DNA of 64,000 nucleotides from Candidatus Poribacteria bacterium (GTDB lineage Bacteria > Poribacteria > WGA-4E > WGA-3G): NCBI GenBank assembly GCA_022821965.1, contig JAJECN010000061.1:1-64000 (forward strand), given 5' to 3'. Position 1 is the first letter of the stretch, and each line of letters starts with the position of its first letter. The notes beneath the pieces are model-generated. The model saw nothing but the letters and a program-made list of their open reading frames with translations, did not search any database and was not told the DNA's origin. Positions 24,493 through 47,018 of the stretch are shown piece by piece. The translations under genes and the position numbers were made by a program.

Positions 24493-24562
24493 ATTGCAAC
24501 TTCCCATTTTGGGCAAACCGCGCGCTATGTTTTTTCTCAAATCTACTTTCTTCCTAAATTAT

Positions 24563-24588
24563 GCACCTCTTTTCCCATAACTCGCGTC
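24563..24588 (+). promoter_or_regulatory. ECF-type promoter signature, copy 1
   Basis: GCACC (24563-24567, within AAATTATGCACC) and CGTC (24585-24588) are 17 bp apart and TTTATATA follows. The layout matches ECF sigma promoters, whose -10 box is often CGTC. The ECF start codon lies 44 nt downstream. The same signature precedes the genes at 26072 and 47765. Confidence 0.55.
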
Positions 24589-24631: not shown

Positions 24632-25825
24632 GTGAAAAACGAAGATGTTGCATTAATCCAACGTATCCTTGCAGGCGATGAAGCTGCTTTTGCGAGTTTG
24701 ATTAGAAAATACCGAAAGCAGGTTCACGCGCAGGCATTGAGACAAATCAACGACTACCAGACCGCTGAAGATATTGTACAAGAGACCTTCCTGCAAGTCT
24801 ATCAGCGGTTGGAAACTTTGGAAGACCCGAAACTTTTTCCAAAGTGGCTTCATGTGATTGTGAATCGACGCTGTATCGCATGGCTCCGCAAAAACAGGCT
24901 ACAAATCGGGTCACTGGAAGAAACCGACATCTCAGAGATAGAGAAGGAGGCGTATTCCCGATATGTCGCTGCAGAACACGCCGAGACGACTGCTGAGGCA
25001 CAGCGCGACCTCGTCCAAAAACTGCTTGCGAAGTTGAAGGAGAGCGACCGAGAGGTCATCACCCTCCACTATTTTGAAGAGATGACCTCTTCAGAAATAG
25101 GGACATTTTTAGGTGTATCTGAAAATACGGTTAAGAGCCGCCTCCACCGTGCGCGGCAACGACTCAAACAGTACGAATTCATGATTCAAGAGGCGTTAGA
25201 TATTACAATTGAGGAGGGACACCGTTCCCAAAACGAGTTGAAAGGAGCAATTAACATGACAGCAGAAGTGAGAGATAACACCGAAGTTGAAGCAAATGAG
25301 GAAAAAACGCAACGCCAGATTGCTGATCTGCAACAGCAAATTAAGGATATCGCTGCTGACTCGGACGCTTTTCTTGCGTCACGAAGGAATGAAGCTGTTG
25401 AGACATTACGCCGTGTTCCCTACGATGCTGAAAGACCGATCTCATGGGGCTATGTGGGTGGGTATCGTCCGTCTCCGGGAAACGGGACCGGACGCGTCGC
25501 ATTTTGGTGGGATAACATTGATAACTTTCTATCTAAGGCACCGGATGCTGAAATCGTGAATCTTGCGAGTCTCTTTACGAATCCCACTATAATCGCTGTT
25601 TTGAGACAGTTAGTGGAAGGAAAGAGATCGGTCTCGGATTTGGCAAAAGCGTGTGATGCCCAAGAAAGTGAGATAGAGAAAGCCGTGGAGACGTTAATGG
25701 ACGCGACATTAGTGGAGCGCACGGAAAATGATCTCATTGAACCCAAAAATGATGTTGTCTCTTTTTTCCTGAACTTCGTGAGTATGACAATCGTCCATCT
25801 CGGACACATCAAACCTGATAATTAA
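24632..25825 (+). CDS. ECF sigma factor fused to coiled coil and ArsR-like winged helix (paralogue 1)
   Basis: The GTG at 24632 is preferred because GGAG sits 7 nt upstream exactly as in the ATG-started paralogue at 26072. Of 397 residues, about 1-190 form an ECF sigma factor: region 2 (DEAAFASLIRKYRKQVH, DIVQETFLQVYQRL) and region 4 (LPKL-type helix, EEMTSSEIGTFLGVSENTVK, SRLHRARQRLK). After a linker come a short coiled coil (about 215-245) and a winged-helix domain (about 300-370: FTNPTIIAVLRQLVEGKRSV then SDLAKACDAQ...EKAVETLMDATLVERT), as in ArsR-type regulators. There is no membrane segment. An in-frame ATG at 25256 with AAAGGAG could start the C-terminal part separately. Confidence 0.88.
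   Translation: MKNEDVALIQRILAGDEAAFASLIRKYRKQVHAQALRQINDYQTAEDIVQETFLQVYQRLETLEDPKLFPKWLHVIVNRRCIAWLRKNRLQIGSLEETDISEIEKEAYSRYVAAEHAETTAEAQRDLVQKLLAKLKESDREVITLHYFEEMTSSEIGTFLGVSENTVKSRLHRARQRLKQYEFMIQEALDITIEEGHRSQNELKGAINMTAEVRDNTEVEANEEKTQRQIADLQQQIKDIAADSDAFLASRRNEAVETLRRVPYDAERPISWGYVGGYRPSPGNGTGRVAFWWDNIDNFLSKAPDAEIVNLASLFTNPTIIAVLRQLVEGKRSVSDLAKACDAQESEIEKAVETLMDATLVERTENDLIEPKNDVVSFFLNFVSMTIVHLGHIKPDN
25241..25258 (+). promoter_or_regulatory. Internal ribosome-binding site and start codon within ECF gene 1
   Basis: AAAGGAG, an 8-nt gap and ATG (25256) lie in frame at the sigma/winged-helix junction. Initiation here would give a 189-residue product with the coiled coil and winged helix but no sigma domain. 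The paralogue keeps the same arrangement at 26702. Confidence 0.5.
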
Positions 25826-25954
25826 ACTCAGTTTTCGTTGGCGGGGTTTGGAAGAACTGGCACCCGGTTTTTTCTAACCTTCGCCACTGCAACGCCATAT
25901 TTCAGGCAAACCTTCCGACAAATATTCCCTTTCAAACCCATTTTTCAAAATTAT

Positions 25955-25979
25955 GCACCCTTTTTTCTCAGTTCGCGTC
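25955..25979 (+). promoter_or_regulatory. ECF-type promoter signature, copy 2
   Basis: GCACC (25955-25959, within AATTATGCACC) and CGTC (25976-25979) are 16 bp apart, followed by ATTATATA. It is 92 nt upstream of the second ECF gene. Confidence 0.55.
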
Positions 25980-26071
25980 ATTATATAGTGAAGTGAACGG
26001 ATAGCATGTTGTACATCTATTCGAGAAACGTGTAATCTGCTTAGTGAAAGTAGCCTTTCTGGAGATGTCCG

Positions 26072-27277
26072 ATGAGAAATGACGATGTTGCGTTGATCCA
26101 GCGCATCCTCACGGGTGATGAAAACGCCTTCGCGACCTTGATTGAAAAGTATCAACGGCAGGTTCACGCACTCGCATTTCGGAAAGTAGGCGATTTTCAG
26201 ACCGCCGAGGATATTACACAAGAGACGTTCCTGCGAGTCCATCAGAAACTCGCAACGCTAAACGATCCAGCAAAGTTTTCAGGATGGCTGTATGCGATTG
26301 TGAATCATCTGTGTATCGCGTGGTACCGAAGAAACCGGTTACAAACCGAGTCGCTACAAGAGCTCCATATCTCAGCAGTAGAAAAGGATGCGTATTCTCA
26401 GTATATCGCGACGGAGCACGCAAAAACAACTGCTGCAGCGCAACGCGACTTGGTCAAAAGGCTCCTTACCAAGTTGAAAGAAGGTGATCGAGAAATTATC
26501 ACGCTTCACTACTTTGAAGAGATGACATCTTCAGAGATAGGAACGTATTTAGGTGTATCCGAAAATACGATTAAGAGTCGGCTCCACCGGGCGCGACAGC
26601 GGCTAAAGAAGTACGATTTTATGATTCAAGATGTATTAAACATCACAACCACAACTGAAGGCGAACACCGTTCCCAACACCCATTGAAAGGGGAAATTAA
26701 CATGGCAGACGAAGTGAGAAACCGATCCGAGGTTGACACAAGGTTGGAAGAGATGCAACGTCAGATTACGGATTTACAAGAGCAAATTAAGGGCATCGCA
26801 GCGAACTCGGGTGCTTCTAATGATTCAGATAAAAGAGAAGCACTTAATGCATTACTCCAGCTCCCTCATAATGCGAAAGATCCGATCACGTGGTGCTACG
26901 CGGGGGCATATCATGCGGCTTCTGGGCAGCGGTCAAGCCGAGGTTCAGTCTGGACGACCAGTACTGATAAGTTCCTATCTAACGCACCAGATGCTGAGAT
27001 CGTGAAGCTTGCGAAATTCTTCACGAATCCGACTGTCGTCGCTGTTTTAAGACAGTTAGTGGAGGGCAAGAGATCGGTTGCGGATTTGGCAAACGGCTGT
27101 GGCATTTCCGAAAGTGAGATGGAGGAAACCGTGGCACTGTTAATAGACGGAGCGTTGGTGAAGCGGACGGAAGACGATTTCATCGAACCTAAAAACGATG
27201 CCGTTTTCTATTTTCTGAACTTCGTCGGTATGGTTACCGTCTATCTGAATCCTGAAGAATATCATTCTCAGGATTAA
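26072..27277 (+). CDS. ECF sigma factor fused to coiled coil and ArsR-like winged helix (paralogue 2)
   Basis: This 401-residue protein is collinear with the preceding one over its whole length. The sigma part (about 1-190) has DENAFATLIEKYQRQVHALA, DITQETFLRVHQKL and EEMTSSEIGTYLGVSENTIK; the C-terminal part has a coiled coil (about 218-245) and the winged helix FTNPTVVAVLRQLVEGKRSV...EETVALLIDGALVKRTEDD. GGAG lies 7 nt before the ATG within the TTTCTGGAG leader shared by several ECF genes here. An internal ATG (26702, residue 211) with AAAGGGG corresponds to the internal start of paralogue 1. The gene is followed after 16 bp by a coiled-coil gene and then an ABC-2 permease, so it likely heads that operon. 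Confidence 0.88.
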   Translation: MRNDDVALIQRILTGDENAFATLIEKYQRQVHALAFRKVGDFQTAEDITQETFLRVHQKLATLNDPAKFSGWLYAIVNHLCIAWYRRNRLQTESLQELHISAVEKDAYSQYIATEHAKTTAAAQRDLVKRLLTKLKEGDREIITLHYFEEMTSSEIGTYLGVSENTIKSRLHRARQRLKKYDFMIQDVLNITTTTEGEHRSQHPLKGEINMADEVRNRSEVDTRLEEMQRQITDLQEQIKGIAANSGASNDSDKREALNALLQLPHNAKDPITWCYAGAYHAASGQRSSRGSVWTTSTDKFLSNAPDAEIVKLAKFFTNPTVVAVLRQLVEGKRSVADLANGCGISESEMEETVALLIDGALVKRTEDDFIEPKNDAVFYFLNFVGMVTVYLNPEEYHSQD

Positions 27278-27293
27278 TTAAGGAGAAACTACT

Positions 27294-27662
27294 ATGACAG
27301 AGGAAGTGAAAGATCAAGCCAAACTCAAAACAAGGCAGTCCTCTCTGGAAGACAGGCAGCGCGCTCTTGAAACACATCTGGCGAGGGCACAGAGTTTTCG
27401 CAAAGAAGTTGTGGAAACAAGGGACAGCCACCTTTTTGAAGTGGATAAGAGAATTCAATCTGTTGAAACAGATCTGGAGAAGCTACAGCGTCATCGCAAA
27501 GAGGTTGTGGAAACAAGGGATCGTGGTCTTGCTGAGGTGGATGAGAAAATTCAATCCATCAATGAGGAGATCCACGCTTGCCAGAATGAACTTTCAAAAA
27601 TTGCTGACCTGCGGGCGGAACTTCAGGCAACCACAACTAAATCGACTGCCTCTATTGCCTGA
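27294..27662 (+). CDS. Coiled-coil protein with an internal duplication
   Basis: The 122-residue product is almost entirely charged heptad sequence, a predicted long coiled coil. Two about 35-residue units repeat: FRKEVVETRDSHLFEVDKRI then QSVE (about 44-67), and HRKEVVETRDRGLAEVDEKI then QSIN (about 76-99). Its first residues (MTEEVKDQ) resemble the internal-start segments of both ECF fusions (MTAEVRDN, MADEVRNR), suggesting a common origin of this leader. AAGGAG precedes the ATG. It lies 16 bp after the ECF gene and 9 bp before the permease gene, so it is probably cotranscribed. Function unknown; a partner or adaptor of the ECF coiled coil is possible. Confidence 0.72.
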   Translation: MTEEVKDQAKLKTRQSSLEDRQRALETHLARAQSFRKEVVETRDSHLFEVDKRIQSVETDLEKLQRHRKEVVETRDRGLAEVDEKIQSINEEIHACQNELSKIADLRAELQATTTKSTASIA

Positions 27663-27671
27663 GAGAAAATA

Positions 27672-29180
27672 ATGTTTTTAGTGCTACTGAAGCGTGAGAT
27701 TCTCGCGCATCTGATAACATTTCGTTTTGCGATTACGGTGATTACCTGCTTGCTGCTAGTTGCCACAACCATGTTCATCAGAATTAATGATTATGAACAA
27801 CGGTTAGCGAGCTACAATGCCGCCAGAGACGCGCACCGTGATGAGCTTTTATCGACCCGCACCTATTCCTTTTTAATGCCAAAGATCGATAGACCGCCGA
27901 ACCCGCTGAGCATTTTTAACGCCGGCATGGACAGTCGGCTCGGTAATACGCTGCGGATTTATTATACACATGTCCCTGTCCTCTGGGATGCACATTCCCA
28001 CAGTTCTGGCAATCTTTTCATCGATCATTTCTACCGAATCGACCTTGTCTTTGTTTTCCAGTTCGTGCTTTCATTACTGGCACTGCTGTTTGCCTACGAT
28101 GCGATTGCAGGCGAACGGGAAAGCGGTACAATGCGGGTGACAATGAGCAACCCAGTAAGACGGGGTAGCGTTTTGGGCGCGAAGTACGTTGGTGCAATGA
28201 CATGTCTAATCCTGCCACTCATCATCAGTTTTATCATCGCTTTGATTTGGATCGTATCAACGGGTTCAATCGTCTTTAGTGAGGCGGATTTCCTACGAAT
28301 TGCGGGCATCCTGCTAACTTCAATTATCTATCTTTCTGCTATCTATCTGATAGGATTTTTTATTTCTGCTTCGGTGCACCGCACCGCAACGGCACTCATG
28401 CTCTCTCTATTTGTCTGGGTGGTATTAGTATTGGTTTATCCTTCCGTTAGCGTGTCAGTGGTTGATCAGCTGATAAAGCCTCAAAGGAGTCTGATATCTT
28501 CGAGTTACGATGCGATGCGGCAAATACGAGAGGAAGCGAATAAAGAGGCGATGGAATATCTTCAGAACGATGCGATTGCAGGCGAAAGCGACCACTTTAA
28601 CGTAGAAGGCTCTCGCGGTGGATTAAATGTGGGGCTCAGTAACCAAAGAACACTGATGCGTATAAATTTCAGGGCATATGATTGGCAATTCATCAGCCCG
28701 GAATCTGAAAAATACGTTCCGCATGTCATCCGCTACCATCAATTCTTAGCACCTTTACACATTGATGCCGCAGAGAAAATGGGATTGATACGTCTGCCTG
28801 CATTAGATCAAATCCGGTTTCGGAGAACCAGAATTGCGCAGCATCTACTTCGGCTCTCTCCAGCAGCGATGTATAATCTCGCAACACAGGCATGGTTAGG
28901 AACAGACCTTGATGGTGTTGTAGACTTCTTTGAGGCGGCGCGCCACTACCGACGTACGCTGATTAATTACTTTTACGATGAAGATGCTTTTTCAAGTCGA
29001 CAGTGGTTTGCGAGTGATAAAGGTGCCATCAACTTAGATGATCTGCCGGGATTTACCTATCAACGTGCCAGTCTCTGGGTAAACGCTTCACGGGCACTCC
29101 CCGATCTGCAGTTGTTAATTCTACTCAATGTCGCGTTGTTCTTGGCGACCTTCGCTATTTTCGTCAGGCAGGAGATTTAA
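27672..29180 (+). CDS. ABC-2 type transporter permease (gene 1)
   Basis: The 502-residue membrane protein has an N-terminal transmembrane segment (about 15-35), a large extracytoplasmic loop, then FVLSLLALLFAYDAIAGERE (about 126-145) followed by SGTMRVTMSNPVRRGSVLGAK, the coupling-helix-type signature of ABC-2 permeases, and further membrane segments to about residue 265. A second large soluble region (about 270-475) precedes a last C-terminal membrane segment. This long-loop layout fits the DUF3526-like group. No ATP-binding subunit is encoded nearby, so the ATPase must act in trans. The gene is 9 bp after the coiled-coil gene. Confidence 0.84.
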   Translation: MFLVLLKREILAHLITFRFAITVITCLLLVATTMFIRINDYEQRLASYNAARDAHRDELLSTRTYSFLMPKIDRPPNPLSIFNAGMDSRLGNTLRIYYTHVPVLWDAHSHSSGNLFIDHFYRIDLVFVFQFVLSLLALLFAYDAIAGERESGTMRVTMSNPVRRGSVLGAKYVGAMTCLILPLIISFIIALIWIVSTGSIVFSEADFLRIAGILLTSIIYLSAIYLIGFFISASVHRTATALMLSLFVWVVLVLVYPSVSVSVVDQLIKPQRSLISSSYDAMRQIREEANKEAMEYLQNDAIAGESDHFNVEGSRGGLNVGLSNQRTLMRINFRAYDWQFISPESEKYVPHVIRYHQFLAPLHIDAAEKMGLIRLPALDQIRFRRTRIAQHLLRLSPAAMYNLATQAWLGTDLDGVVDFFEAARHYRRTLINYFYDEDAFSSRQWFASDKGAINLDDLPGFTYQRASLWVNASRALPDLQLLILLNVALFLATFAIFVRQEI

Positions 29181-29189
29181 ATGTCAGTT

Positions 29190-29255
29190 GTAGGCTGGGT
29201 TGAACGGAACTGAAAAGAGGTACCAAACCTCGAAAAGGTGTGCGTGAAACCCAAC
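29190..29255 (+). repeat. GGGTTGAACG dispersed repeat, copy 2
   Basis: GTAGGCTGGGTTGAACGGAA (29190-29209) and GCGTGAAACCCAAC (29242-29255) match the arms of the elements at 18424 and 36683. It separates the two permease genes. Confidence 0.7.
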
Positions 29256-29288
29256 GCTTCAAACACCGCCTTTTACCGAGGACACAAT

Positions 29289-30761
29289 ATGATTTTCCAC
29301 ATCGTCATACGGGAACTATACGATCATCTAAGTAGTCTCCGTTTTGCACTCACAACACTATTAATCCTAATACTGATGATTGTCAATGCCGTTGTGTATC
29401 TTGGAGAATACAAGCAGCGAGTGGGCATCTATCGAGGGCGGACTATTGCCTCACAAAACCGACTGCAATCTCGGTGTGAGACTCTGTATGAACTAGCTCT
29501 CAGGGGACCTGGACACCTGTACAAAAAACCGAGTCCTCTGGCTTTTTGTGCAGATGGCGGCGAAAGACTTCTACTTGACGAAGTACGTGGCAACACTGAC
29601 GGACGGATACGTCGCTGGTGGAACGGGGATACTTCCTACGAATTCACAGAAATATGGGCGTTAGCCTATCCCCCCAATGTTGATATACTCTTCATTGCAG
29701 AGCAAGTGCCAAGCGAGAAAAGTATCATGCCGAACTATATAAAAATTGATTGGGGATTCGTGACGGCTGTTCTATTAAGTTTTATGGGCATTCTATTTAC
29801 GTTCGATTCAATCTCCGGTGAACAAGAACGTGGGACACTGCGGTTAATGCTATCAAATAGTATTTCACGGAGTGCCGTGATTTGTGGTAAATTTCTCGGC
29901 GCTTTTTTTACGATTACAATGCCTTTTTTGATTGGAGCGATTGTCAGTATTTCCATCATATACCTTTCGGAAACCGTTCCGTTCAACGGTAGCCATTGGG
30001 TCCGGTTGGGTTTGATCATCTGTGTCGCCTTGATTTATACCTCGATTTTTATTTTCTTGGGAATCCTTGTTTCCAGTCGCGTCAGAGAGTCCTCAACGAG
30101 CTTGGCGATTCTATTATTGATTTGGACGGTCTGGGTGGTGCTACTGCCAAACGCTCTCGGCTCCCTTGGTAACCGCTTGCACACCCGTCCTTCCGCCAGA
30201 GAATTTATGGCGCAGGCACGGGATTCCCGCGAAGATTTACAGATACGCTACTTTACTCGGATCAAGGAACCTCCCAAACGAGAAACGCCGGCGACAATCG
30301 CGACATCGTTAGGAGCGGAATATGTTAATAAAGATGCAGAATTACGCGATCGCTTGCATGCGGACTATCTTTCTGAGGAACTTCGTCAGATTCAAACCGC
30401 TCGGTCACTTACCCGTATTTCGCCAGCAGCTATTGTCCAGTACGCTTTTGAAGGGCTTGCGGGCACCGGTTTGCCTCGCCATTTAGACTTCATCTCTCAA
30501 ACGCGCCAATATGCAAAACAGTTTCGGCAATTCCTCATTGATACCGATCGCGCGGATCCTGCAAGTCCACATGCGGTCGGTATCCCAGAAGGGACATCCC
30601 AAAAACCTGTGAACTTTGATGCTGTCCCGAAATTTGAGGATCAACACCGTTTTAGTGTGGATTTTAATGCCGCAATCGTTGATCTACTGCTATTAATCTT
30701 GTTCTTTTTGGTGTTGTTCGTTGGCGCGTTTCTCTCTTTTCTACGTACAGAGATTGGGTGA
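29289..30761 (+). CDS. ABC-2 type transporter permease (gene 2)
   Basis: The ATG at 29289 gives a 490-residue protein; an upstream GTG-like start at 29238 would lie inside the repeat element. It is a divergent paralogue of the preceding permease: N-terminal membrane segment (about 16-38), long extracytoplasmic loop, FMGILFTFDSISGEQERGTL then RLMLSNSISRSAVICGK (the ABC-2 signature), several membrane helices to about 290, a soluble domain and a final membrane segment. The pair could form a heterodimeric exporter with an ATPase encoded elsewhere. It is probably transcribed with the ECF, coiled-coil and first permease genes, with a repeat inserted between them. Confidence 0.84.
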   Translation: MIFHIVIRELYDHLSSLRFALTTLLILILMIVNAVVYLGEYKQRVGIYRGRTIASQNRLQSRCETLYELALRGPGHLYKKPSPLAFCADGGERLLLDEVRGNTDGRIRRWWNGDTSYEFTEIWALAYPPNVDILFIAEQVPSEKSIMPNYIKIDWGFVTAVLLSFMGILFTFDSISGEQERGTLRLMLSNSISRSAVICGKFLGAFFTITMPFLIGAIVSISIIYLSETVPFNGSHWVRLGLIICVALIYTSIFIFLGILVSSRVRESSTSLAILLLIWTVWVVLLPNALGSLGNRLHTRPSAREFMAQARDSREDLQIRYFTRIKEPPKRETPATIATSLGAEYVNKDAELRDRLHADYLSEELRQIQTARSLTRISPAAIVQYAFEGLAGTGLPRHLDFISQTRQYAKQFRQFLIDTDRADPASPHAVGIPEGTSQKPVNFDAVPKFEDQHRFSVDFNAAIVDLLLLILFFLVLFVGAFLSFLRTEIG

Positions 30762-40164: not shown

Positions 40165-42921
40165 ATGGAAAAAGATGACTTTAAACTAATTCACAGCGTA
40201 TTGTCAGGCGACGAGCATGCTTTCAGTATTTTAGTTAAAAAATACCAAAAAAGCGTCCACGCCTTGGCATGGCGGAAAGTTGGAGATTTCCATATCGCTG
40301 AAGAAATCACCCAAGACACCTTCCTGCAAGCACACAAAAAACTCGCTTCGTTGAAAAATCCGAATCAGTTTGCCGGGTGGCTTTACGTGATCACAGATCG
40401 GCTTTGCAGATCATGGTTACGGAAGCGGCAACTGCGTACACAATCACTGGAAGCGACTGATGAGGAAACACTCGAAGAAACGGATTACTCGAACTATATC
40501 CGCGAACAACGTGAAGATACAGCCGTTGAGCATCGTCGTCAAATCGTGCAAAAACTCATGGAAAAACTGCCGGAAAGTGAACGGACCGTGATGGTACTTT
40601 ACTATCTCGGAGAAATGAATTGTAAGGAAATTAGCAAGTTTTTAGGTGTGTCCTCAAATACGGTTAGAAGTCGACTTCACCGTGGGCGAGAACGATTAAA
40701 GAACGAAGAACAAATAATTCAAGAGACCTTTGGTAGCATCCCATTAAGTCCAAATCTCATCGAAAACATCATGGGGAACATTGATGCCATCAAACAGACA
40801 TCCCCTTCAGGAGATAAGCCGTTTCTACCGTTAGCGGCTTTAGGTTCATCTGTTATTTTGGTTATTTTGTTGATGGGAGCGAGCAATCAATTCATCGCGC
40901 GTTCTCAGCAGCCTTATAGCCTTGATGCACAATCAGAACCTACAATTGAAATTGTTGATGCGCCTGTTATTCATAATATCATATCAAAACCTGATGTGCA
41001 AAACCGAGTTGGCAGCGATACTATCCCCGGTAGAAACAGCAACAAAGGTCTACCAACAGGAACTAAGTCTATGAAAAATAATACAGCACAAGAATCCATG
41101 CAATGGAATCTACCAGAAGATGCGAAAGCACGCCTCGGTAAAGGTAAGATAAACGAAATACAGTATTCTTCCGATGGGGCAATTCTCGTTGTTGCGACGG
41201 GTATCGGTATTTGGCTCTACGACACAACAACGTATCAAGAGATCGGACTTCTTACGGCACATACGAGTGCAGTCAAGTGCCTTGCCTTCAGTCCTGATGG
41301 ACACCTCCTTGCGAGTGCAGACGACGCAGGTACCATTCTACTTTGGCATAGAAGCACAGGCGCGCAAAAAGTGCTCACAAGGGGCACGGAATCGATCTCA
41401 AACTTGACATTCAGTCCCGACGGACAAACACTTGCCAGTGGAAGTGGCGGTACTATCCGATTTTGGGATACCATCACTGGAGAAGAAAGGGATGCGTTCA
41501 CAGGACTTCCAGCAAATATCGGTGATTTATCATTTAGTCCCGATGGGAAAACAATTGTGAGTGTAACTTGGGATGGCGAAATCTGTATATTGGATGTGAT
41601 CGCCGGTAAACTTCAGAGAACATTTACTGTGCGTATGACGGATGTTGTCTTTAGCGTTGCCTTCAGTCCGGATGGTGAAACAGTTGCTATTGGCAGTAGA
41701 GATGGTAACATCTACCTCTCAGATTTAAACACGGGTAAACTCAAGCAAAAACTCATTGGACATTCGGTAGATGTTCAAAGCATAGTGTTCAGTTCAGACG
41801 GCAAAACTCTCGCAAGTTCATCATATATAGATGAAACAGTCCGTATCTGGGATGTCCACACAGGCAAACACAGGCGAACCCTTACTGGACACACGTGGGA
41901 TATTCCGGGTTTAGCCTTCAGCCCAGATGGCAAAACCCTCGCGAGTAGCGAAAGTGGTGATGGCACCATCCGTTTCTGGGATGTCCGCACAGGCGATCAA
42001 AAACATGCAGTTACTGGATATACGGGATTTATTGATGATTTTGCATTCGGGTCCAATGGACAGACAATCATAATTGGGTATGGTGCTGGCACCATCCGCT
42101 TATGGGATACACACACTGGACAACACGTCAAAACGTACAATAAGTTTAAGAATGCCATGTCAAACGGGGCAATAGCAAACATACGATTCACCTCCGATGG
42201 AAAAGCGCTCACTTGGGGCAATGAAGGCATGCGCCTTTGGGATGCTGATACAGACGAACTCAAAATGATACTCACGATAAGTGAGTGGGGTAACCATACT
42301 ATCGGACGCAGTCCCGACGGAAAGATAATCGCTATTGCGTTCGATAAGGACAATCTTATAAGATTATGGGATATGCACACAGGTGAACAGAGGCTAACAC
42401 TCACTGGACACACGGAGGGAATTTTTTGCTTAGCATTTAGTCCTGACAGCAAAACCCTCGCCAGCACAAGTGACGATAATACACTCCGCCTCTGGGATGC
42501 ACAAACAGGAAAGAACAAGAAGGTATTTACTTTAGATAGTGCTTGGAGGAACGATGTTGCAGATTGGCGGATAGATAGTACTTGGTGCAGCATCGCATTT
42601 AGTCCCGATGGAAAAATGCTCGCCTGTGGCGGTGGTGAAATCATTCTCTTATGGGATATAGATACATGGAAGACCAAGATGAGACTCACCAGACGGACAC
42701 ATCGGGTGTTTGATTTAGCGTTCAGTCCGGATGGAACTACCCTCGCAAGTGCGGGTTTCGAGAGTAACATCAACTTATGGGATCCACACACCGGTGAGCA
42801 CAAGAAAACACTGACGGGACATACAGCTTGGGTGAGAAGCATCGCGTTCAGTCCGGATGGTAAAACCCTTGGCAGCTGTAGTGACGATGGCACGGTGCTC
42901 ATCTGGGAGATAAATCCGTAA
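40165..42921 (+). CDS. Membrane-anchored ECF sigma factor with extracytoplasmic WD40 propellers
   Basis: GGGAGG 6 nt before the ATG at 40165 sets the start of this 918-residue protein. Residues about 1-185 are an ECF sigma factor (DEHAFSILVKKYQKSVHALA, EEITQDTFLQAHKKL, and region 4 GEMNCKEISKFLGVSSNTVR). A membrane segment lies at about 221-245, followed by a linker with YSLDAQSEPTIEIVDA and KPDVQNRVG. From about 325 to the end there are 14 WD40-type blades of the form AFSPDGKTLASxSxDxTIRLWD, enough for two seven-bladed propellers. Topology would place sigma inside and the propellers outside, a one-protein sensor and transcription factor. The linker is nearly the same in the BNR version at 44028. 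Gemmata-type planctomycetes have ECF-WD40 proteins, so the architecture has precedent. Confidence 0.9.
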   Translation: MEKDDFKLIHSVLSGDEHAFSILVKKYQKSVHALAWRKVGDFHIAEEITQDTFLQAHKKLASLKNPNQFAGWLYVITDRLCRSWLRKRQLRTQSLEATDEETLEETDYSNYIREQREDTAVEHRRQIVQKLMEKLPESERTVMVLYYLGEMNCKEISKFLGVSSNTVRSRLHRGRERLKNEEQIIQETFGSIPLSPNLIENIMGNIDAIKQTSPSGDKPFLPLAALGSSVILVILLMGASNQFIARSQQPYSLDAQSEPTIEIVDAPVIHNIISKPDVQNRVGSDTIPGRNSNKGLPTGTKSMKNNTAQESMQWNLPEDAKARLGKGKINEIQYSSDGAILVVATGIGIWLYDTTTYQEIGLLTAHTSAVKCLAFSPDGHLLASADDAGTILLWHRSTGAQKVLTRGTESISNLTFSPDGQTLASGSGGTIRFWDTITGEERDAFTGLPANIGDLSFSPDGKTIVSVTWDGEICILDVIAGKLQRTFTVRMTDVVFSVAFSPDGETVAIGSRDGNIYLSDLNTGKLKQKLIGHSVDVQSIVFSSDGKTLASSSYIDETVRIWDVHTGKHRRTLTGHTWDIPGLAFSPDGKTLASSESGDGTIRFWDVRTGDQKHAVTGYTGFIDDFAFGSNGQTIIIGYGAGTIRLWDTHTGQHVKTYNKFKNAMSNGAIANIRFTSDGKALTWGNEGMRLWDADTDELKMILTISEWGNHTIGRSPDGKIIAIAFDKDNLIRLWDMHTGEQRLTLTGHTEGIFCLAFSPDSKTLASTSDDNTLRLWDAQTGKNKKVFTLDSAWRNDVADWRIDSTWCSIAFSPDGKMLACGGGEIILLWDIDTWKTKMRLTRRTHRVFDLAFSPDGTTLASAGFESNINLWDPHTGEHKKTLTGHTAWVRSIAFSPDGKTLGSCSDDGTVLIWEINP

Positions 42922-44027: not shown

Positions 44028-47018
44028 CTATTCCTCTTCAAGCGAGATATGAAAGACCCCGAGCTGGAAGGTAGCAATGTACAACCTATTGTTACTGGCA
44101 ATAAGAGAAACAACTTTATTTGTTATGTGTGGGTCAAGCTCCCATGGCACCTGCGGAGCGTTGCTGTTCTTGGCAACAAGAGAAACAACTTTTTTGGGTG
44201 CACTTGGAGAGATTTTATCCCATTTGCCACGATTATCTAAACGATAGACCCCAGTATCGCCAATACCATAAACTGTGGTGCCATCCACAGCGAATTTGTC
44301 AATAACGACATAAGCTCCCACCTTATCGGTTATCACGCGCCAGTGTGTACCAACTCGTGAAGCTAAAACCCCTTTGTCCGTTGCGACGTAAACCGTTGAA
44401 CCGACAAAGATTATTTCCTTAAAACTGATAAAGCGGAGTGGAAGGTTTGACGTAACGTCTCTCCAACTGTCTCCACCATCAAACGACTGAAACAGCCTGC
44501 CATTCCGCTTGCCCACGTAAATAGTTTCCGCCGAAGCCGCTAACTTAAACCCTTTATTCAACCCAGTATCAGATCGTTCACTGATATCTACCAGTCCAGT
44601 ATTCGTCCATTCTGGGTCGCCGGATTTCCATTTGAAAAGCCTCCCCAAGAATTCTATGTAGAACGTCTCACCACTGACTGCGAACCCGCCGACACCACCA
44701 TATATGTCAAGCAGATATAATGGAGCAGGTACGTTCTTAATTACCTGACGACCCGCAGCCAAACTCGCCTGTTTCAATTCTTCAAAGTGTGCCTCTGTCC
44801 AGAACTCCATGACGAGTGTTTCACCATCAAAATCGGGTACACCTTCAATTGGAATGAGTGCCTTGCCATCTGCAGACAGACGCAAAACACGCAGGTTGGC
44901 ACCTTCATCCATAATCACATAGAGCACATTATCAACAATTTTTAACTTTGAAAATGCAAAGAAACCGCTGTAAAGGCTTTCGTACACGCTTTCCCACGAC
45001 ACGCCTCCATCGGTCGATTGAAAGATGCCTTCACTCGTATGCGCATAAAGTCTATCGTTGAAAAGCACTAAATCCAGTGTTACCGTTCCTGCCATCCCGT
45101 TCGTAAATGGATGCCACGAGTTCCCACCATCAGTTGTACGATGAACACCGAATATCCCTGCTCTGTAAAACGTCTGTTCGTCTACCGCCACAAGTGGCTG
45201 CTTGTTCAACCTAAATGAATTCAGATCTGATTCAAAATTTGTCCCAGCCTGTCCACCATCTGTTAAGTGAGGTTTGACAGCATTTTGCGTTAAGAACGTG
45301 TCATCAACAGGCAAAAACCTTATACCGGTTGGTGTCCGTATTAACACAGATTTATCTTTAGGCGTTATATCTGTCCACGATTTTCCTAAATCGGTTGAAT
45401 GGTAAATACTGTTTAAACTTGCGTCGTCGTCGAGTGCTATTTCTTCTATAGTCTTTGGCGTTGTAAAAAGATCGGAACCTGATTTAACATAAAGATTGTT
45501 TTCAAAGACTTCTAAAGCGTGGATGGCTTCGGACATGCCCACGGGGAGTTGTTCCCAAACACCTGAATTGAGACGGTAAAGACCTCGATTTGTGCCAGCA
45601 AACACTGTGTTTTCAATGGCAGCGATCGCATAAATTCTTTTCCCTGTTAATCCATCGTTGATAGGTGTCCACTGTTTACCGGCATTCGTAGATCGGAAAA
45701 TGCCTTTATCAAGAAGGGCGAAATACATTGTTATAGACGCTTGTGAGTTTTGCCCTTGTGACCCATTTGTGATAATTAATCCAGTAGGATATCCTTTTGG
45801 TAAGAAATTACCAAGTGCCTTCCACGTCTCGCCCCTATCAGCCGAAGTAAATATTTTATGAAGAGTAAGGTAGAGGGTGCCGCCATGCTCCGTGATAGGT
45901 AAGTGATCTTCAGTCGGTAAACCTATGTTGATGAGTGACCAGGCATTTTCATCCTCTGATAATCTGTAGAGACCTGTTGCGGCAATAGCGTAGAGTCCAC
46001 CCTCAGATGTAGAGAAGAGCTTAATGCCGGCACCGCCTTGGAGCCCATTCACCCGCGTCCACTGCGAACCAGAAAATTTGCTGGAATCGCCCCATGTATT
46101 GGATGCTAAAACCGTCTCAGACACCTGTGAACCAGTCTTGTCGCTTCTACCCGGGGTAATAGTACGTCCAAGTCTATTTTGAATATCCGGTTTCGACCTA
46201 GTGTCAAGTACCATAGATGCATCAACAAGTTCAATCGTGGGTTCAGACTGCGCCTCGAAACTATACGGCTTTTGGAAACGAGCAATGTACTGACTGCTCA
46301 CACCGAGCAGCAACATAACCAATACGGTAGCCGTACCAAAGGCTATCCACGGAAGCGAGGGTTTCACAGGTGGAGATGGTGTCGGCTTCATGTTGGCAAT
46401 CTGCTGTATGATGTTTTCCATTAAATCGACAGGCAATTGTACGCTGCTGAGTGTTTCATTAACCAAGAGTTCTTCTTCCGTCCGTAAACGCCTCCGCGCC
46501 CGCTGCAACCGACTCGTGATTGTATTCACCGATACGCCTAAAAATCGACCGATTTCCTTGGTATCCATTTCACCGAGATAGTAGAGCGTTACCACCGTGC
46601 GTTCGCTCTCCGGCAGTTTCTCGAGCAGTTTTTTAACGATCGTACTGCGATGCTTAGTGGCTTCCATCTCGCGTTCCTCTGATATATGATGAACATAGGA
46701 AGATTCCTCTATCTCCTCCATAGGTGTGTCCTCCAGAGATTGCATCGTAGGTTTGCGTCTTTGGATCCAATTAATGCAACGCCGATTCGCAATGACATAC
46801 AACCATCCTTCAAACTGATTAGGATTCTTCAGTGTTCCGAGTCTTTTGTATACTTGGAGGAAGGTGTCTTGCGTAATTTCTTCAGCAACGTGGAAATCAC
46901 CGACCTTCCGCCACGCGAGTGCATGAACACTCTTTTGGTATTTTTGTACCAAAATGGTAAATGCCTCGTCATCGCCATCCAAAATTCTGTGAATGAGTTG
47001 AACGTTGTTCTTGACCAT
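44028..47018 (-). CDS. Membrane-anchored ECF sigma factor with extracytoplasmic BNR/sortilin-like propeller
   Basis: The 996-residue protein repeats the architecture of the gene at 40165 with a different sensor. Residues 1-185 are the ECF sigma part (DEAFTILVQKYQKSVHALAW, EEITQDTFLQVYKRL, GEMDTKEIGRFLGVSVNTIT). The membrane segment is at about 222-245. The linker keeps YSFEAQSEPTIELVDA and SKPDIQNRLG. Beyond about 320 come many BNR/Asp-box-type blades: FTSADRGETWKALG, FRSTNAGKQWTPI, YHSTDLGKSWTDI, HRTTDGGNSWHPF, FQSTDGGVSWESV, FQSFDGGDSWRDV, as in sortilin/Vps10 and YCF48 propellers. GGAG lies 8 nt before the ATG in the shared TTTCTGGAG leader. It follows a lipoprotein gene by 36 bp. Sensor exchange behind a constant sigma-TM-linker is the notable feature. 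Confidence 0.9.
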   Translation of the reverse strand: MVKNNVQLIHRILDGDDEAFTILVQKYQKSVHALAWRKVGDFHVAEEITQDTFLQVYKRLGTLKNPNQFEGWLYVIANRRCINWIQRRKPTMQSLEDTPMEEIEESSYVHHISEEREMEATKHRSTIVKKLLEKLPESERTVVTLYYLGEMDTKEIGRFLGVSVNTITSRLQRARRRLRTEEELLVNETLSSVQLPVDLMENIIQQIANMKPTPSPPVKPSLPWIAFGTATVLVMLLLGVSSQYIARFQKPYSFEAQSEPTIELVDASMVLDTRSKPDIQNRLGRTITPGRSDKTGSQVSETVLASNTWGDSSKFSGSQWTRVNGLQGGAGIKLFSTSEGGLYAIAATGLYRLSEDENAWSLINIGLPTEDHLPITEHGGTLYLTLHKIFTSADRGETWKALGNFLPKGYPTGLIITNGSQGQNSQASITMYFALLDKGIFRSTNAGKQWTPINDGLTGKRIYAIAAIENTVFAGTNRGLYRLNSGVWEQLPVGMSEAIHALEVFENNLYVKSGSDLFTTPKTIEEIALDDDASLNSIYHSTDLGKSWTDITPKDKSVLIRTPTGIRFLPVDDTFLTQNAVKPHLTDGGQAGTNFESDLNSFRLNKQPLVAVDEQTFYRAGIFGVHRTTDGGNSWHPFTNGMAGTVTLDLVLFNDRLYAHTSEGIFQSTDGGVSWESVYESLYSGFFAFSKLKIVDNVLYVIMDEGANLRVLRLSADGKALIPIEGVPDFDGETLVMEFWTEAHFEELKQASLAAGRQVIKNVPAPLYLLDIYGGVGGFAVSGETFYIEFLGRLFKWKSGDPEWTNTGLVDISERSDTGLNKGFKLAASAETIYVGKRNGRLFQSFDGGDSWRDVTSNLPLRFISFKEIIFVGSTVYVATDKGVLASRVGTHWRVITDKVGAYVVIDKFAVDGTTVYGIGDTGVYRLDNRGKWDKISPSAPKKVVSLVAKNSNAPQVPWELDPHITNKVVSLIASNNRLYIATFQLGVFHISLEEE

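Follow-up and report, generated by a model that had tools for sequence, protein, structure and literature searches.

Do the two tandem sigma factor genes of this locus encode one protein each or two? Both join an extracytoplasmic function (ECF) sigma factor to a winged helix in one reading frame, and at the junction both have a ribosome-binding site followed by an in-frame ATG. An earlier note on this DNA had offered two explanations for this arrangement, a recent fusion of two adjacent genes or a nested second product. We find that both hold in part and that each gene is probably a two-product gene, encoding a sigma-coiled coil-winged helix protein as well as a free coiled coil-winged helix protein; judged from sequence evidence, we put the probability of this reading at roughly 0.75.

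The stretch of DNA analysed here, 64 kb in length and called the window in the following, comes from a genome of 5.69 Mb. The two genes lie in tandem (Table 1), and their products are 63% identical over residues 1 to 391. Gene 1 starts with the GTG at 24632, a small correction supported by the M(K/R)N(D/E)DV at which homologues begin. Both proteins have sigma region 2 (PF04542, residues 23 to 89) and region 4 (residues 126 to 180, with PF08281 at 126 to 178) but lack region 3, as is characteristic of the ECF family of sigma-70 factors, and they match TIGR02937 with 107.6 and 112.1 bits (cut-off, 42.9 bits). Region 4 is followed by a C-terminal extension (residues ~205 to 397) made up of a coiled coil and the winged helix. 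Among the Pfam matches listed for this part there were no SnoaL-like, TPR or cysteine-rich domains but helix-turn-helix (HTH) matches instead; membership in ECF41, ECF42 or ECF238, which calls for one of those three extensions, was rejected. ECF sigma paralogues form a large family in this genome, with members in the window at 40165-40731 (plus strand) and 46446-47009 (minus strand) and at about 50 further places. In most of them, sigma is fused to a transmembrane helix and a very long C-terminal part, and the open frames reach ~1060 residues.

Table 1. Positions of the features of the sigma fusion locus within the window
Feature	Position	Strand	Product and start	Basis or remark
ECF-type promoter motif TGCACC-N15-CGCGTC ahead of gene 1	24562..24588	+		motif; putative promoter
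Gene 1, ECF sigma + coiled coil + ArsR-type winged helix	24632..25825	+	397 aa, GTG	Pfam
Internal Shine-Dalgarno AAAGGAG of gene 1	25241..25247	+		sequence; conserved in 115/115 junctions
Nested frame 1, predicted free coiled-coil winged-helix protein	25256..25825	+	189 aa, ATG	conserved internal start, model, fold
ECF-type promoter motif TGCACC-N14-CGCGTC ahead of gene 2	25954..25979	+		motif
Gene 2, paralogous ECF sigma-winged helix fusion	26072..27277	+	401 aa, ATG	Pfam
Internal Shine-Dalgarno AAAGGGG of gene 2	26687..26693	+		sequence; junction conservation
Nested frame 2, predicted free winged-helix protein	26702..27277	+	191 aa, ATG	conserved internal start
Shine-Dalgarno AAGGAG of coiled-coil gene	27280..27285	+		sequence
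Coiled-coil gene	27294..27662	+	122 aa	start region homologous to internal starts
ABC-2 type permease 1, syntenic partner	27672..29180	+		PF12679, 6.7e-26
ABC-2 type permease 2, syntenic partner	29238..30761	+		PF12679, 3.3e-29

The C-terminal domain matched HTH_20 at residues 316 to 368 with 27.7 bits in gene 2 and 24.5 bits in gene 1 (cut-off, 27 bits) and NF033788 with 21.5 and 23.9 bits against a cut-off of 55. A profile of the winged helix matched NolR (E = 2.8e-4), and in NCBIfam the free winged-helix parts gave HTH-type matches only, above chance. AlphaFold modelling of the entire protein gave a poor result (mean pLDDT, 53.5; pTM, 0.31), which was set aside. A model of the winged-helix part, built on six related sequences, reached a pLDDT of 78 to 90 in its best part and is dependable only at residues ~100 to 170; its residues 88 to 183 carry the ArsR/SmtB fold, with the helices, the recognition helix, the beta wing and the C-terminal dimer helix, and gave Z scores of 12.0 with SmtB (8qkf) and 11.8 with CzrA (6cda). 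The domain therefore models as an ArsR/SmtB-fold winged helix, as the earlier note had proposed for both paralogues. Its predicted fold, including the wing and a dimer-type helix at the C terminus, is that of the repressors SmtB, CzrA and NolR (Z ~10 to 12), but unlike them the domain is fused to a sigma factor and is preceded by an N-terminal coiled coil of ~90 residues and a linker. Moreover, sequence identity to these repressors is low, no metal motif was recognised by eye, and inspection of the winged-helix alignment for a metal or thiol sensing motif revealed no conserved cysteine pair; the domain could respond to other ligands. The coiled coil begins just after the internal methionine and is thus present in the long and the free form. 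A role in defence, raised by matches to Csa3/CasR regulators of a defence library (E = 1.7e-6 at best), was not adopted; these matches hardly extend beyond the winged helix.

At both junctions, the internal Shine-Dalgarno (SD) sequence is separated by eight bases from an ATG (25256 and 26702) that is in frame with the sigma factor. Since the 3' end of the 16S rRNA of this genome is GGCTGGATCACCTCCTT, its anti-SD sequence is the usual one. When 2010 ATG-anchored windows of 49 bases, taken from both strands of the 64-kb window, were compared with the gene 2 site, the gene 1 site had 37 of 49 matches and the start of the coiled-coil gene at 27294 had 32, whereas the next best had 26. Indeed, the ribosome-binding sites described in the earlier note can be read at both junctions, and the 27294 gene does have a leader of this type.

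An internal site that varies at random among homologues had been named beforehand as evidence against a second product. With the winged-helix part as the query, relatives were found in 47 of 84 genomes of the phylum, mostly as open frames of ~400 residues. A junction profile applied to the fetched stretches, many of them from incomplete genomes, yielded 115 distinct junction copies. These are related by descent, so that the counts are not independent and are only partly corrected by the tree-based count given below. The site was kept in all of them: an SD sequence lies 7 to 10 bases upstream of the start codon in 115 of 115 copies, and the start codon is ATG in 114 and GTG in one (L083 7719, minus strand), in which the SD sequence is intact. 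Amino acid changes at the junction (HEG for NGG in L084 and L117; KRG for KGE in L113) go along with a shifted SD sequence that is still present. The reading frame across both halves is open in nearly all copies, so that selection probably acts on the full-length protein as well. Frame-broken copies (L087, L113, L117 and L129) were examined and gave no clear signal favouring either product. The internal start is not a property of all sigma fusions of this genome, since 27 membrane-type paralogues, which serve as a negative control, mostly have a methionine (LTENIM) at a comparable position, where codons vary freely and no SD sequence is conserved.

The survey also returned relatives of other build. 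In L084 (9807-10761), a coiled-coil gene like that at 27294 runs in frame via another SD-ATG leader into a winged helix, so that this junction occurs in fusions of a third type. Five winged-helix copies have no sigma part (L097 6281, L098 6132, L112 6834, L118 7201 and L120 2508); their N terminus resembles the first membrane helix of the neighbouring ABC-2 permease, and they are apparently membrane anchored.

The same sigma end, SD sequence and methionine were found in front of five unrelated partners: the winged helix (62 entries, 61 of them preceded by sigma), a DnaN-type clamp (35), an S9-type peptidase (15), PurC (2) and a WD40 protein (1). The PurC and DnaN assignments are backed by searches with PF01259 and PF00712, and the S9 and WD40 names are a reading of the sequences. 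The window genome has three such junctions, those of genes 1 and 2 and that of a sigma-DnaN fusion on another contig (L134 4816, minus strand; C59:71442-73160), which has 34 relatives; a normal dnaN is present elsewhere in the genome. The internal methionine of the DnaN fusions is exactly where their homology to free DnaN sets in; free dnaN frames of 371 to 375 aa match from this residue onward, and the clamp keeps its own SD sequence and ATG. The two sigma-PurC fusions (L105 4143 in G053 and L113 6922 in G075) occur in genomes that each have a second, free purC, and in L105 the native purC ribosome-binding site and ATG are still readable further inside the fused frame. The S9-type peptidase (~730 residues) follows the same SD-ATG junction in L116, L121, L123, L129, L173, L179-L181, L195 and L204-L209, and free relatives with frames of 724 to 770 residues are found in some of the same genomes.

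How the fusion may have arisen is indicated by a distant relative in family f3 (L132), in which a separate sigma gene (194 residues) is followed by the winged-helix gene and the same two ABC-2 permeases. Here, the winged-helix gene begins in another frame before the sigma gene ends, with the SD sequence within the last codons of sigma (CAGTTGAGAGGAG, nine bases, ATG). In family f2 (L122, and likewise L102) the corresponding stretch is CAGTTGAAAGGAG, eight bases, ATG, and the two parts are in frame and fused. One spacer base separates the unfused state from the fused one. A second, separate f2 type (L130 and L133) is also fused, and in all four of these fusions with other sigmas the SD sequence and ATG are kept. 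The sigma of family f1 is yet another one, but the codons just before its SD sequence (RS-x-x-QLKGE) resemble the f2 sigma end, which suggests that the f1 sigma was exchanged upstream of the SD sequence. The ancestor would then have been a pair of overlapping, translationally coupled genes, sigma followed by winged helix; a single-base change in the spacer that follows the SD sequence would have brought the winged-helix frame into line with that of sigma, and the internal start would have been retained since the free winged-helix protein was still needed. The fusion of adjacent genes proposed in the earlier note thus finds support in the unfused syntenic locus, but a recent date is not supported: the junction is common to two genera of the family, and the sigma tree requires at least eight partner changes. 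As far as sequence comparison can date it, the fusion of the coupled genes is old. The two explanations offered for the junction, gene fusion and nested product, are not exclusive, and both are supported.

If the internal site is used, its nucleotides should be under selection beyond the amino acids they encode. Indeed, 98% of the junctions have an SD energy of -5 kcal/mol or lower, whereas this holds for 7.4% of the remaining in-frame ATGs in these genes (n = 886). With synonymous codons drawn in their place, no more than 37.7 of the 115 junctions were predicted to be strong. The junction glycine is encoded by GGA in 106 copies, by GGG in 4 and by GGC or GGU in none (usage of GGA, GGG and GGC plus GGU: 26, 19 and 55%), and the lysine codon before it is AAA in 51 of 51 cases in the winged-helix class. 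Over the sigma tree, which has a total length of 11.9, this glycine codon changed its third base four times, never between purine and pyrimidine, whereas 15, 22 and 28 changes were counted in the other conserved glycine columns. A single one of the 26 four-fold columns, that of a valine near the gene's own start, changed less. A synonymous bias of equal strength was also seen at a few other columns, such as a valine codon near the sigma start and a phenylalanine TTT column. Amino acid conservation alone was therefore rejected as the cause of the site by both the recoding of SD strength and codon choice. In 32 of 33 genes compared, the internal SD sequence is stronger than the main one, the exception being gene 2 of the window, in which it is slightly weaker (-5.9 versus -6.4). 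The internal start codon of these 33 genes is always ATG, whereas the main one is ATG in 16, TTG in 13 and GTG in 4. Moreover, the mRNA around the internal ATG (66 bases) is less structured than that of synonymous recodings, with a mean z of +1.05, rising to +1.26 five codons on; elsewhere in the same genes the mean was -0.27. By sequence, then, a conserved SD and start codon lie within a longer frame, as expected of a nested gene. The codon selection in the SD sequence, the near-fixed spacing, the exchange of ATG for GTG, the low mRNA structure and the SD strength all favour the nested product that the earlier note had considered, and this product is very probably made.

Could the site nevertheless be a relic, an SD sequence and ATG left behind by gene fusion and no longer used, with full-length sigma-winged helix as the only product? 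The fusion of adjacent genes is well supported, and a true gene start, at 27294, has the same kind of leader. A relic should decay, however, and no junction glycine codon has lost its purine over the entire tree length of 11.9 and at least eight partner changes; the start codon changed just once, and to another start codon. The local loss of mRNA structure would also be left unexplained, and we regard a relic as unlikely. Nearly as much can be said for the fusion protein as the sole working form, in which the winged helix would be a built-in sensor of the sigma factor and KGE-M would be kept for protein reasons. Fused regulatory domains have precedents in ECF groups (PMC3426412; PMC8999054), and the frame kept open in nearly all copies indicates that the full-length protein is probably selected. 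But constraint on the protein accounts neither for the choice among synonymous codons nor for a common linker end in front of five unrelated C-terminal partners, which makes a sole fusion protein a slightly poorer candidate again.

A further explanation is that the SD-like stretch is a pause site that lets sigma fold before the next domain is made, the methionine being incidental. The stretch is in fact located in an inter-domain linker, always at the same place. A pause site, however, would need neither a start codon at a nearly constant distance, nor a change restricted to ATG for GTG, nor an unstructured start region. In addition, the methionine is the native start of DnaN, and one PurC fusion keeps the native purC ribosome-binding site together with its ATG. 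We consider a pause site very improbable. The two-product reading is the one that we prefer.

Upstream of the two genes, the sequence TGCACC-N14-16-CGCGTC was found, with only two matches in the 64-kb window, one ahead of each gene; 0.18 matches are expected per window, and none of 100 shuffles had two. Of the related sigma fusions, 112 were tested, and 61 have the motif in front. A TGCAnC-N13-17-CGCGTC motif is also located just upstream of several other sigma paralogues (G000:C9:198043, C34:53797, C39:13861, C43:149881, C47:42877 and C57:215529). Its presence ahead of fusions and other paralogues suggests that each of these sigmas drives transcription of its own gene, and autoregulation across the paralogue family is probable.

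On the two-product reading, sigma would transcribe its own gene from the TGCACC-CGCGTC promoter. Translation from the front GTG or ATG would yield sigma-coiled coil-winged helix, and ribosomes would use the internal SD-ATG to make the free coiled coil-winged helix, probably in at least equal amount. Since both forms have the coiled coil and the ArsR-type dimer helix, they are expected to pair, and the free and the tethered form would meet through these common parts. The free winged helix would then be a brake or a targeting partner of the tethered sigma and control the downstream permease operon. The earlier note had suggested that the free protein could antagonise or dimerise with the full-length sigma, which is plausible given the coiled coil common to both forms. 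Judged from the anatomy of the proteins, however, an action of the free winged helix on sigma is possible but somewhat less likely than not.

ECF sigmas with C-terminal regulators are known, and for some an origin by fusion with a once separate regulator has been proposed in the part of a review devoted to them (PMC8999054). Like the window genes, they combine sigma and an extra C-terminal domain in one chain, but the extensions described are SnoaL-like, TPR, WD40, cysteine-rich or anti-sigma domains; a winged helix or helix-turn-helix is not mentioned in that review, nor is an internal start at the junction in its section on extensions. A further difference is that here one junction serves five unrelated partners. 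A second product made by in-frame internal initiation is known for SpaO, with a long and a short form (PMC13059759), and for Cas11b (PMC11899642), and the arrangement is alike, with one frame and a second in-frame start for part of the protein. SpaO and Cas11b, however, are single genes whose second product was shown experimentally, whereas the present case is known from its sequences, and here the internal start travels with the sigma module across partner genes. The open-access literature searched contained no account of sigma fusions of this type from Poribacteria, which may exist elsewhere, and no description of the combination of fused regulator and internal initiation or of a junction retaining its start through changes of partner.

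It is also possible, if rather doubtful, that the ECF sigma with its SD sequence and ATG is a portable cassette that was repeatedly fused to unrelated genes of Poribacteria, each partner existing in a free and a tethered form. If so, the cassette would be a general means of coupling a cell function to the transcription of chosen promoters, and its class would include a natural fusion of a sigma factor and a sliding clamp. In the late transcription of phage T4, the clamp gp45 activates the sigma-like gp55 (PMC7892883); the T4 proteins are separate and those here form one chain, and the parallel to the sigma-DnaN fusion is one of idea only.

Studies of gene fusion seldom deal with internal initiation as well. 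The sequences compared here preserve an entire series, from overlapping coupled genes through an in-frame fusion in which the start is kept to the exchange of the downstream partner, and the change from an operon to a multidomain protein without loss of the separate proteins becomes directly testable. For annotation, it means that an annotated fusion would conceal a second protein in such genes. It also suggests ECF sigma factors whose C-terminal domain, made separately, may regulate them.
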